From Alkalicella caledoniensis (GTDB lineage Bacteria > Bacillota > Proteinivoracia > Proteinivoracales > Proteinivoracaceae): a stretch of 64,000 nucleotides of DNA. Position 1 is the stretch's first letter, and the number at the start of each line of letters is the position of its first letter. The position numbers were made by a program, and so were the translations under genes. A model generated the notes under the pieces. It saw nothing but the letters and a program-made list of their open reading frames with translations. It did not search any database and was not told where the DNA came from. Location: positions 2,046,001 to 2,110,000 of the forward strand of contig NZ_CP058559.1 in NCBI RefSeq assembly GCF_014467015.1. The letters are read 5' to 3'. This document shows, piece after piece, positions 2,459 through 51,024 of the stretch.

Positions 2459-2548
2459 GGATGACAAAGTCATTTATGAATGTCGCAAATTAACTACACA
2501 GTACAAACTCTACGTCGAGATTTAAGGGTTTTTATCTATGCTCCCAAA
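2459..2548 (+). repeat. Decayed half copy of the terminator-associated foldback repeat
   Basis: This begins ATGACAAAGTCATTT and continues with GAATGTCGC, a diverged TACACAGTACAAA segment, CGTCGAGATTTAAGG and TTTTTATCTATGCTCC. It follows the left arm of the complete copies at 46981 and 50725 in the same order, with many substitutions. The right arm is not recognisable. It starts about 12 bases after the terminator T run at 2446, the same position relative to a terminator as the complete copies. No second terminator copy is visible. I read it as an old truncated insertion. Confidence 0.65.
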
Positions 2549-29473: not shown

Positions 29474-29498
29474 AAAGCACCCCACTATGGGGTGCTTC
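29474..29498 (+). terminator. Terminator hairpin after the helicase gene, left direct repeat of an insertion
   Basis: Stem AAGCACCCC / GGGGTGCTT around ACTAT. The same 23-base sequence with one change recurs at 31431-31453 on the other side of the repeat element. The T tail belongs to the right-hand copy; here it is replaced by the element end CAGCTTG. Confidence 0.85.
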
Positions 29499-29628
29499 AG
29501 CTTGTAGACAAACCTAAGACAAAGTCATTGACCCTAGATGTGTATATTAAAAAGCAGTACAATTAATTCGAGGAGATAGACTTAAGAACTGAATAGCTAA
29601 ACGGAAGAAGGGGCGAGAAACAGGACGT

Positions 29629-31285
29629 CAGACTGTGTGGCTAATCTCTAAAAACTCAAAGATTAGCCGTAAATTTCCTGTCTTTTGGTGCAATATGACT
29701 TAAACATATAAAAATACAATGATAAAGTGGGTCTAAGAGCTACTAATATCCTTAGTAGTTCTTTCACTCCTATAATATTTATTACTCTTTTAAAATTATA
29801 GGCTAGCAAAACTAGGGCTGTCTCTGTAGTTACAGAATCCATCCCTCTTGTTAAAAAATACCCAGCATTCATTGTCCTTTTGATGGTTCCATAAGGATGC
29901 TCAACAATCATCTGCCTTTGTAGGTATTTGTCCATATTTGCTTCTGTTCTAGCATCTATAGTATCCAAAAAATCTTGGTTAGGTGACCGATTTATTATCC
30001 TGCCTTTGGCTGCAGTGGTGCATTTGCTTTTTGATTCACAGTTTTTACAGGCATCGTAGTTTCTATATTTTATTCTTTTTGGTTCTTTTGATTTGTGGTT
30101 TATTCTGCGTAATTCATGGCCCAAAGGACAAATATATAAGTCTTTTTCAGGCACATAAGTAAATTTATCTCCGTAGAAATCTTTGTCTCCTGTGGCGTTA
30201 GAATACGACTGTTTTGGCAAATAGACTGTTGTTTCGTTTCTCTCACATTTCATAAGGTCGTCTGCTTGGTAATAGCCTTTATCTGCTGCTACTTCAAGTT
30301 TCCTTTTTCCAAATATATCTTTAGCCTTTTCTGCAAGTGAATTTAGATTACCTTGATCTGCGGGATTGTTTGTAACATCATATGCCACTATAATACTATG
30401 CTTAGAGTCTACAGCTGTTTGTATGTTATATGCTACAGTAACACCATTGTTTTTGTTGTCCATAAGCCTAGCATCTTCGTCAACTGTAGATACTTCATTA
30501 CATTCGCTATCCTGTAGTTTTTTTTCCAACTCTTCAAATTTAATTTTACGCTCCTTGAGTTTTTCAATTTTTTGCTGAATTTCTTCAGGTGTATACTTAA
30601 GTTTAGGTGAATCGTCTTTGTCACTGCTTTCTAACAAATCTAGATAGGAATTAACCTTATCTTCGATATATTGTTTGTGTCTTTGTATTTTTTTCTTTGA
30701 GAAATTATTCTTCTTTGAATTATTAGCTTGAATTTTAGTCCCATCTATTGCTATGAATTCCTCGCCTAATAGTTTGAGATCCTTACACAACTTAGTAAAA
30801 TCCTTGAAAACTTGTTTTAGCTGAGTTTTATTTTCTTTCCTGAAATCAGCTATTGTTTTAAAATCAGGTTTTAGTTTTTGTAATAGCCAAACCACTTCTA
30901 TATTCCTGTGAGATTCTGTTTCTAGCTTTCTAGATGATCTTATGCCATTTACATACCCGTATAGATATAACTTCAATAAAACAGAGGGATGATATCCTGG
31001 TGCACCTCTGCGGTGTTCCTTTGATTTAGTGAATGCACTCATATTGACCAGTTCTACGTATTCATCAATTACTCTAACGGGATTATCCTCACCTATGTAA
31101 TCTTCTATGCAGTCAGGAAACATTGTTTTTTGCTTTCTATCTGTACCTTTTATAAATGACAATTTAAAATCCCCTCTCCGATATTCTATAACTTAATTAT
31201 ACTACAGAAAAAGGGAAAAGTACTGTATTTACAGTACTTTAGAGCCATTTAGACATATATTATTCTCTAATTCTCACACAGTCTG
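29629..31285 (-). mobile_element. IS1182-type insertion sequence, 1657 bp, with ACGT target duplication
   Basis: The ends are an 11-bp perfect inverted repeat, CAGACTGTGTG at 29629-29639 and its complement at 31275-31285. The 4-base palindrome ACGT is present on both sides (29625-29628 and 31286-31289). The uninterrupted repeat copy at 50725-50996 gives the empty site, with one ACGT at 50866-50869, so the boundaries are exact. It contains one intact transposase gene on the minus strand and sits almost at the centre of the host repeat. Confidence 0.95.
29663..31162 (-). CDS. IS1182-family DDE transposase
   Basis: 499 residues, ATG start, full length and without frameshift. The N-terminal region (YIGEDNPVRVIDEYVE, GYHPSVLLKLYLYGYVNGIRSSR) is the DUF772-type segment. 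The DDE catalytic residues lie in FIAIDGTKIQAN (about 139), VAADKGYY (about 293) and VEHPYGTIKRT (about 437). A Cys-rich block (YDACKNCESKSKC) lies between the second Asp and the Glu, as in the family. It can be assumed active because the ends and target duplication are undamaged. Confidence 0.93.
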   Translation of the reverse strand: MSFIKGTDRKQKTMFPDCIEDYIGEDNPVRVIDEYVELVNMSAFTKSKEHRRGAPGYHPSVLLKLYLYGYVNGIRSSRKLETESHRNIEVVWLLQKLKPDFKTIADFRKENKTQLKQVFKDFTKLCKDLKLLGEEFIAIDGTKIQANNSKKNNFSKKKIQRHKQYIEDKVNSYLDLLESSDKDDSPKLKYTPEEIQQKIEKLKERKIKFEELEKKLQDSECNEVSTVDEDARLMDNKNNGVTVAYNIQTAVDSKHSIIVAYDVTNNPADQGNLNSLAEKAKDIFGKRKLEVAADKGYYQADDLMKCERNETTVYLPKQSYSNATGDKDFYGDKFTYVPEKDLYICPLGHELRRINHKSKEPKRIKYRNYDACKNCESKSKCTTAAKGRIINRSPNQDFLDTIDARTEANMDKYLQRQMIVEHPYGTIKRTMNAGYFLTRGMDSVTTETALVLLAYNFKRVINIIGVKELLRILVALRPTLSLYFYMFKSYCTKRQEIYG

Positions 31286-31428
31286 ACGTTTTGAGAGCTC
31301 CACTTACCATGGACGGTGAATTGGAGCGGTACCCTTCTGGAGTTTAGATAGAAGCCTTAAGTCTCGACGCAGAATTTTGTACAGCGTTTAATATGCGACA
31401 TTCCTAAAAAATGACTTTGTCATCAGTC

Positions 31429-31460
31429 TGAAGCACCCCACTATAGGGTGCTTTTATAAT
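31429..31460. terminator. Terminator shared by the helicase and PBP genes, right direct repeat
   Basis: AAGCACCCC-ACTAT-AGGGTGCTT (31431-31453) followed by TTATAATTTT. It duplicates the hairpin at 29476-29498 with one base changed. Before the insertion it was probably a single hairpin between the convergent helicase and PBP genes. Confidence 0.85.
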
Positions 31461-46956: not shown

Positions 46957-46962
46957 CTAACA

Positions 46963-46980
46963 AGCTCCCATGAGGGCTTT
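46963..46980 (+). terminator. Terminator hairpin after kamE, left direct repeat of an insertion
   Basis: AGCTCCCATGAGGGCTTT. It matches the better hairpin at 47271-47289 apart from one deletion and one change. The T run is cut short by the element end AGACTGATGAC. Confidence 0.7.
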
Positions 46981-47270
46981 AGACTGATGACAAAAGTCAT
47001 TTTTTTGAATGTCGCATATTAAACGCTACACAAAATTCTGAGTCGTAACTTAAGGCTTCTATCTAAACTCCAGAAGGGGACCGCTCCAATTCACCGTCCA
47101 TGGTTGTAGGGGGTGGTCTTGTACCACCCTGACTTCCAAAAAGGTTAGATGGTTTTGATTGTCAGGGTCCTACAAAAGGACCCCCTACCAGTCTCCTCGA
47201 ATTAATTGTGCTGCTTTTTAATATGCCATTCTTGGGTCGATGACTTTGTCTAAGTTTATCTAAAAGCTAC
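46981..47270 (+). repeat. Terminator-inserted foldback element, copy C, with a different centre
   Basis: About 290 bases. The left 120 bases (46981-47103, from AGACTGATGAC through CCAATTCACCGTCCATGG) and the right 78 bases (from TCTCCTCGAATTAA to TCTAAAAGCT) match copies A and B. The middle (about 47104-47192) is unrelated to the others. It forms nested palindromes: an outer GTAGGGGG / CCCCCTAC, an inner GGGTGGTCTTGTACCACCC and GGTCCTACAAAAGGACC. No ORF with a ribosome site. Flanked by the duplicated kamE terminator. Confidence 0.88.
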
Positions 47271-47293
47271 AGCTCCCATGAGGAGCTTTTTAT
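47271..47293 (+). terminator. Terminator hairpin, right direct repeat of copy C
   Basis: AGCTCC-CATGA-GGAGCT followed by TTTTTATATTT. Probably the original kamE terminator tail displaced by the insertion. Confidence 0.8.
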
Positions 47294-49206: not shown

Positions 49207-50706
49207 ATGAAACTTTGTGAAATCCGCAAAGAAGGAGAAAAATTCATATCGGAGCTTGGTAAATTCTATCTTTCTGGGGGGAGTGGACCATCGGACAGTC
49301 AATCAAAGGGTTCAATAAAGCAAATATATGACAAATACCAGCATATTTTCACTGAGGAAAATATAAAAAATATAAAAACAGACTATAAGAATTTTCCAGA
49401 GAAGGAAAAGAGATATATACTATCTTTTCTAACTCAAGGTTATCTTGGAAATAAAACATATAGCCTTACAGAGGAAATTGTAAAAAGTGAAATGGCCACA
49501 TCTGTTTTAATAAACAAAAAACCTATTTCTTTAAGATATGCTATGCTGCTATTACCTGCAGAAAAGGATAGGGAAAAAAGAATGCAGATGGATCAATACT
49601 TAGGGGAAAAACAAAAGGAACTAAACCCATTGAGGGAAAAAAGAGTCCTGAAGTTAAGGAGTATTGCTGAAGATCTAGGATATTCTCACTATACAGAGCT
49701 AATAGAGGACACAACGAATATAAATGTATGGGAACTAAAAAAGACTGCAGAAAGATTTTTACAAGGCACAGAAGAAGTATATTCTTTATTGTTAGATAAA
49801 CTAAAGGGAACTTTTTTAAACTCAGGAGAAAAACCATTAACAAAATCAGATATAACTTATATATTTAAATCAAATTCCTTTGACCAATATTTTCCTGAAA
49901 TTGAAATGGTGCCATCGGTAGAAGACACCTTGTTTGGGATGGGGATAAACATACATAAACAATCGAATATTACTATGTGCTTTGACAAAGAAGAAGGGAA
50001 AACTCCTAGATCTTTTTGTTGTCCTGTAAGTATACCTGATGAAATATTTTTAAGCTTTAATCCCAGAGGAGGTATTGAGGATTATCAAACATCTCTTCAT
50101 GAGACGGGTCATTGTCAGTACTATGCAAACATGTCTAAAAATCTGCCATTTGAATTTAAGAGACTTGGTGACAAAGGATTAGGGGAAGGGTACGCTTTTT
50201 TATTTCAATTTTTAACTAAGAATAGTCATTGGATAGATAAATTCCTTAATATACCCATGGAAAGAATTAATAGTTATCAGTTATTTATTAATGGTTACCA
50301 AATATATATACTAAGAAGATTTTTTGGGAAATTACTCTATGAATTAGAGGTTTTTGCTAAAGAAGTAAACTTGGAAATTCTGCAGGAAAAGTATGTTGCT
50401 ATTATGGAAGATGCAGTAAAAGTAAAGGTGAATCCTCATAACTACTTGCTGGATCTTGACTTAGGATTTAATACACCATACTACATCAAAGCATGGATCT
50501 TTGAGAGCTATTTAAGGGAATATCTTCAGAATAGTTTTGGAATGGACTGGTTTTGTAATAAAAGAAGTGGAGAAAAACTAAAATCTTTATGGGAACAGGG
50601 GCAAAGTTTTGACTGTGAGGAGGTTTTGGCCCAACTAGGTTTTGATAACCTTAATGAAGATTTGTTAGTAAAGCAATTTAGTTGGATAAAAGAAACAAAG
50701 GTATAG
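49207..50706 (+). CDS. M3-like zinc metallopeptidase (oligoendopeptidase-type)
   Basis: 499 residues, ATG 8 bases after AGGGGGTG. The zinc motif HETGH is at about 297-301 (SLHETGHCQYYAN), with the third ligand Glu in GLGEGYAFLFQ about 30 residues later, the gluzincin pattern of M3/M32 peptidases. The N-terminal half is helical. No signal peptide, so it should cleave short peptides in the cytoplasm, which fits an amino acid fermenter. It is shorter than PepF (about 600 residues) and diverged. Its stop codon lies inside the terminator hairpin that was later duplicated by a repeat insertion. Confidence 0.82.
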   Translation: MKLCEIRKEGEKFISELGKFYLSGGSGPSDSQSKGSIKQIYDKYQHIFTEENIKNIKTDYKNFPEKEKRYILSFLTQGYLGNKTYSLTEEIVKSEMATSVLINKKPISLRYAMLLLPAEKDREKRMQMDQYLGEKQKELNPLREKRVLKLRSIAEDLGYSHYTELIEDTTNINVWELKKTAERFLQGTEEVYSLLLDKLKGTFLNSGEKPLTKSDITYIFKSNSFDQYFPEIEMVPSVEDTLFGMGINIHKQSNITMCFDKEEGKTPRSFCCPVSIPDEIFLSFNPRGGIEDYQTSLHETGHCQYYANMSKNLPFEFKRLGDKGLGEGYAFLFQFLTKNSHWIDKFLNIPMERINSYQLFINGYQIYILRRFFGKLLYELEVFAKEVNLEILQEKYVAIMEDAVKVKVNPHNYLLDLDLGFNTPYYIKAWIFESYLREYLQNSFGMDWFCNKRSGEKLKSLWEQGQSFDCEEVLAQLGFDNLNEDLLVKQFSWIKETKV

Positions 50707-50724
50707 CTTCGGCTATACCTTTTA
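50697..50724 (+). terminator. Terminator of the peptidase gene, left direct repeat of copy B
   Basis: AAAGGTATAGC-TTCG-GCTATACCTTT. The hairpin includes the peptidase stop codon (50704-50706). The identical 28 bases recur at 50997-51024. Confidence 0.92.
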
Positions 50725-50996
50725 GACAGATGACAAAGTCATTTTTTGGTGAATGTCGTATATTAAACGCTGTACAAAATTCTGCGTCGAGACTTAAGGC
50801 TTCTATCTAAACTCCAGAAGGGTACCGCTCCAATTCACCGTCCATGGTTCAATGGAGCTCTCGAAACGTCCTGTTTCTCGCCCCTTCTTCCGTTTAGCTA
50901 TTCAGCTCTTAAATCTATCTCCTCGAATTAACTGTACTGCTTTTTAATATACACATCTAGGGTCAATGACTTTGTCTTAGGTTTGTCTACAAGCTG
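50725..50996 (+). repeat. Terminator-inserted foldback element, copy B, complete
   Basis: 272 bases, the reference copy. Left end GACAGATGACAAAGTCATT; right end, read on the other strand, CAGCTTGTAGACAAACC then GACAAAGTCATT. The two arms of about 120 bases align as imperfect inverted repeats: GTATATTAAA, a GTACA block, a CTTAAG/TTTAAG block, CTAAAC and AGAAGGG recur in order. The centre has GCTCCA / TGGAGC around CCATGG. No coding potential. Flanked by a perfect 28-base direct repeat that is the peptidase terminator. Confidence 0.92.
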
Positions 50997-51024
50997 AAAG
51001 GTATAGCTTCGGCTATACCTTTTA
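50997..51024 (+). terminator. Terminator hairpin, right direct repeat of copy B
   Basis: Exact second copy of 50697-50724, continuing into TAATTT. Confidence 0.9.

Follow-up and report, generated by a model that had tools for sequence, protein, structure and literature searches.

The window analysed here, a 64,000-nucleotide stretch of the Alkalicella caledoniensis genome, carries copies of a short non-coding element that lie between two copies of an intrinsic terminator hairpin. This duplication of the hairpin by the element is real and general in lineages with CAGACTG-type tips. From its tips and behaviour, the element would be a MITE-like transposon whose transposase is supplied in trans by a subgroup of the IS1182 family ending in the same CAGACTG-type tips. 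We put at roughly 85% the probability of the following reading: a transposase of this tip-defined subgroup moves the element into a terminator palindrome, and the whole stem-loop is duplicated by repair. Terminators were called from sequence only.

The window holds three copies of the 270-bp element, which has no open reading frame of 100 residues or more, and the hairpin repeats that a first-pass annotation had described on their flanks are all present. Copy B (50725-50996, plus strand) starts with TAGACAG and ends with CAAGCTG, the consensus first base C being a T at position 50723. It is bounded by the 28-bp terminator hairpin AAAGGTATAGCTTCGGCTATACCTTTTA, found identically at 50697-50724 and 50997-51024. 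Copy A (29498-31430, minus strand) lies between 23-bp hairpin repeats differing by one mismatch (29475-29497 and 31431-31453). It had been described as a near-complete copy spanning 29499-31430; the element is indeed there, but is not simply longer, being split by a separate, nested IS1182-family insertion of 1657 bp (29629-31285). Copy C (46980-47269, plus strand) is flanked by repeated hairpins of about 19 bp with one indel (approximately 46962-46979 and 47271-47289). The hairpins at the three loci are unrelated to each other. The centre of copy C is swapped for a palindrome of about 85 bp (GTAGGGGG..CCCCCTAC) resembling the ends of g4, another IS1182 group. Such a replacement occurs in some other copies of the element, as at locus L174, where a full g4 IS stands at the centre of a 2157-bp element that is itself located between duplicated hairpins. 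Finally, a fragment of the left part of the element (2460-2544, plus strand, 78% identity) is found shortly downstream of a terminator-like hairpin.

In the A. caledoniensis genome, a single contig of 3.70 Mb, a sequence search retrieved 41 matches to the element, and pattern searches added more. Flanks were compared for a direct repeat, counted at a score of at least 12, with the left flank of one copy set against the right flank of another as a control. Among the copies with both ends readable, 23 of 25 sit between two copies of one hairpin, and none of 116 mismatched pairs attains the score of these true pairs, which rules out chance as the source of the flanking repeats. Upon folding, 21 of the 23 repeats display at least five stem pairs. 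Genome G002, from another genus of the same family, possesses at least 40 copies of the element at about 80% identity, and 30 of the 32 with readable ends lie between duplicated hairpins (control, 0/151). The hairpin duplication that the first-pass annotation had described at the three window loci is seen at most copies with readable ends in both genomes, and neither of the outcomes that it had named as speaking against its reading turned up. The order- and class-wide search for the element returned no genome with copies beyond G002.

The element is absent from G001, a genome of the same genus as G002. A joined-flank search revealed five orthologous empty sites in G001 for occupied sites of G002, each with one hairpin and not two. 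The duplication had been ascribed to the target, and this holds, because the hairpins differ at every locus and the five empty sites carry a single one. Tandem terminators exist in general, and the element might have landed between two that were already in place, or the second hairpin might have arisen later by gene conversion. The five single-hairpin sites rule out pre-existing double terminators, and in 54 of 62 IS copies of the putative partner subgroup (among the best 80 of 538 loci, see below) the perfect repeats stop abruptly at the IS tip; the idea that the hairpins are not target duplications is therefore scarcely credible.

The interior of the element aligns end to end with the model of an orphan Rfam family, TwoAYGGAY (RF01731), whose gathering threshold is 43 bits. 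In copy B the match covers positions 50779-50913 on the minus strand with a score of 32.4 bits, and the best A. caledoniensis copy reaches 42.0 bits, both below gathering. Relatives score 44-61 bits and up to 63.8: the copies of G002 reach up to 45.7 bits, some of them at or above gathering, and those of G128, a genome of an unrelated family, score 51-61 bits, with a maximum of 63.8 bits, above it. The tip CAGACTGTAGACAAA occurs 72 times in G128 with at most one mismatch (reversed control, 0), and the hairpin is duplicated at 18 of 26 tip-bearing copies (control, 0/125), or at 13 of 20 in a subset chosen by tip alone. Of 398 genomes sampled across the phylum, 40 contain TwoAYGGAY, and multiple copies per genome are frequent. 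The flanking repeat score of 12 or more was attained by 10 of 67 such copies and 2 of 198 controls, the clear hairpin cases coming from G128 and G042, and the claim of hairpin duplication is for this reason limited to the CAGACTG-tip lineages. Most TwoAYGGAY copies elsewhere in the phylum show no clear repeat within 150 bp, a point against the preferred explanation.

Published accounts treat TwoAYGGAY as an RNA whose function is not known and which may bind CsrA (PMC2864571, PMC4333381); in the papers found it is not presented as mobile, and no link to transposition was found in the open-access literature searched. The present data suggest that, in several lineages at least, this family represents a mobile element, in which case transposition may account for part of its copy number and covariation. 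TwoAYGGAY could instead be a functional RNA cargo aiding the element or its host, and not inert filler, as its two-hairpin interior is conserved across distant families and resembles CsrA sites (PMC4333381). Covariation, however, can equally come from a palindromic DNA element, and we regard such a cargo role as unlikely, albeit compatible with transposition by the IS1182 subgroup. In two unrelated genomes, a 6S RNA gene (Rfam) shares a stretch with a TwoAYGGAY copy (L120 44-222 in G002; L212 2272-2457 in G042), at a distance of more than 500 bp in both. The L120 copy does not lie in the 6S RNA terminator, the 6S gene being more than 1 kb away.

The tips of the element resemble CAGACTG(T/A)NGACAAA, and tips of this type are likewise found at the ends of some IS1182-family insertion sequences of Bacilli and Clostridia, which form a subgroup. 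In G185, G002, G001, and G028, such tips stand directly beside hairpins at IS1182 transposase loci, and the IS tip in G002, CAGACTGAAGACAAA, is also that of the MITE. These IS are 1.5-1.8 kb long, have CAGACTGTMGACAAA at both ends, and harbor a single transposase gene; two of the encoded proteins (L382 and L377) score 471 and 458 bits against the NF033551 model (cut-off 270). Genome contigs were scanned for the transposase, and the best 80 of 538 loci, mostly from Bacillaceae with some from Clostridia, include 62 IS with both ends. Loci outnumber species in this set since several genomes, as those of Bacillus sp. OV166 or Neobacillus drentensis, contribute many copies.

Of the 62 complete IS copies among these best 80 of 538 loci, 56 lie between direct repeats 19-35 bp long, which are perfect in 54 cases. 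Each of the 56 repeats is one hairpin, and no two sequences are alike. Their mean folding energy is -9.0 kcal/mol, versus -0.8 kcal/mol for neighbouring segments, and none of 224 folding controls is as stable as the median repeat. Symmetry about the dyad of the hairpin is observed in 54 of the 56, and a T-run or A-run adjoins the stem in 54 of the 56 as well. In many copies from this set, complementary bases extend beyond the repeat, so the cut is symmetric yet not always at the outermost pair, which counts against the preferred explanation. Sharing its tips with the IS of G002, devoid of transposase, and duplicating its target in the same way, the 270-bp element shows the traits of a MITE. 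ISEfa7, an IS1182-like element of Enterococcus faecium, has the same tips (CAGACTGTAGACAAAG) and a transposase about 55% identical to that of Neobacillus. In contrast to the subgroup, it adjoins a hairpin on one side only at two distinct sites in Enterococcus plasmids (L422 and L423), with no duplication, and this too speaks against the preferred explanation.

The IS nested in copy A, termed IS-1, has tips CAGACTGTGTG and is surrounded by a 4-bp duplication, ACGT (29625-29628 and 31286-31289). Its transposase (29663-31162, minus strand, 499 residues) belongs to the IS1182 family (NF033551, 393 bits). The A. caledoniensis genome contains twenty copies of this 1.66-kb IS, of which 13 occupy a single site within the 270-bp element and seven lie elsewhere. 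Given the 7-bp tip CAGACTG common to IS-1 and the element, and this frequent nesting, the IS-1 transposase might be thought to move the element, copy A being the full-length autonomous form. However, the duplications made by IS-1 are always of 4 bp (ACGT, CCGT, or ACGC), inside and outside the element. Its orientation relative to the element is one way in seven cases and the other in six, and IS-1 must therefore have entered the element more than once. Its transposase, moreover, shares only about 25% amino-acid identity with the hairpin-duplicating subgroup. IS-1 was rejected as the engine of hairpin duplication on the 4-bp duplications and the two orientations, and we hold this origin to be very improbable. 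The GGACGTTTC site inside the element is a hot spot for IS-1, used in both orientations (window 29629-31285; L051-L070), and several IS-1 copies outside the element also occupy palindromic sites.

Altogether, 31 matches to IS1182 transposases were counted in the A. caledoniensis genome; they fall into four groups, and the hairpin-duplicating subgroup is not among them. The ends of g2, g3, and g4 were checked, and none has the tips of the element. The element copies of this genome are thus orphans at present, and the link between element and enzyme has to be drawn from other genomes, which weighs against the preferred explanation. Group g3, with five copies (L100-L104), generates 8-bp duplications; by eye, three of the five are inserted in a terminator hairpin close to its loop, an arrangement reminiscent of the loop duplication drawn by Wan et al.

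In the proposed mechanism, the target would be the palindrome of an intrinsic terminator, probably in an extruded form, either cruciform or stem-loop. At each arm of the extruded terminator, the DDE transposase would join the element to the 5' foot, so that either side of the insert would carry one arm as a single strand; gap repair would then copy the arm, and the site would gain a second complete hairpin. In a cruciform, the two 5' feet would be neighbours at any arm length, and a single enzyme could therefore produce a variable stagger. The sequences themselves show the duplications with their dyad symmetry, the empty sites, the common tips, and the like behaviour of the autonomous IS; we infer the extrusion of the hairpin, the strand chemistry, and the pairing of element and transposase. 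The first-pass annotation had suggested that the hairpin itself is recognised. Structure rather than sequence does appear to define the target, since the IS duplications vary in length (19-35 bp), no sequence recurs among the 56, and nearly all are dyad-symmetric; the physical reading of a fold goes further than this and is our inference.

The same transposase could also act on linear duplex DNA with no extruded hairpin, one subunit recognising each arm of the inverted repeat. The dyad symmetry of the duplications, which often start with AA or AG and end with TT or CT, would suit such reading. A rigid synaptic complex on duplex DNA, however, normally imposes a fixed stagger, and the spacing of the cuts varies with unchanged IS ends, from 21 to 33 bp within Bacillus sp. 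OV166 alone; we consider duplex reading possible but doubtful. Alternatively, the target could be a hairpin in single-stranded DNA, as exposed on the lagging-strand template or on the strand that a transcription bubble displaces. Single strands of terminators do fold, and nearly all sites are terminator-like. A DDE enzyme joining ends symmetrically to opposite strands nevertheless needs both of them, and the duplication of the full hairpin at both ends fits two-strand joining, making a single-stranded target improbable. As for transposition into an extruded terminator, a bolder version would have DNA shape alone guide the transposase to its target, with the cuts measured from a four-way junction and the duplication set by hairpin length and not by the enzyme; the TwoAYGGAY RNA of the non-autonomous form would take part in mobility or host regulation instead of being inert. 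This combination seems to us unlikely.

The length of a target-site duplication is normally fixed by the transposase. Here, it appears to be set by the structure of the target, which provides a natural example on which structure-guided DDE transposition can be tested. Since a terminator remains on each side of the insert, insertion may be nearly harmless, and terminator-flanked insertion would be a simple route to gene ends with little damage. Such a transposase could serve to place DNA downstream of genes.

Several other systems favour hairpin or terminator targets, namely IS110/IS1111, group IIC introns, and REP-associated elements. They rely on other enzymes, and we know of no whole-hairpin duplication by any of them. 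The comparison to IS110/IS1111 and IS1397 made in the first-pass annotation is to be replaced, the closest relatives being the IS1182 family and IS1272. That IS1182 members target hairpins has already been published (PMC4923244, PMC5678879). IS1272 and TnSha1 also possess an IS1182-family transposase and target terminators or other hairpins with no common primary sequence; the hairpin targeted by IS1272 is then lost (PMC4923244, PMC5678879). With IS1272, the hairpin is deleted or replaced with no target duplication, whereas the present elements duplicate it whole. Replacement of the IS1272 type is not what is seen here, as a hairpin stands on both sides of most element and IS copies. The first-pass annotation knew of no such arrangement. 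No documented case of whole-hairpin duplication by an IS1182 element was indeed found in the open-access literature searched, but a hypothetical pathway had been proposed (PMC5678879). Wan et al. (2017, PMC5678879) drew three pathways: replacement, duplication of the whole stem-loop with ends at the 5' feet, and duplication of the loop. The present elements fit the second (pathway b of their Fig. 13), which was drawn with no example; many natural cases from several genera now supply examples for a pathway so far only modelled.
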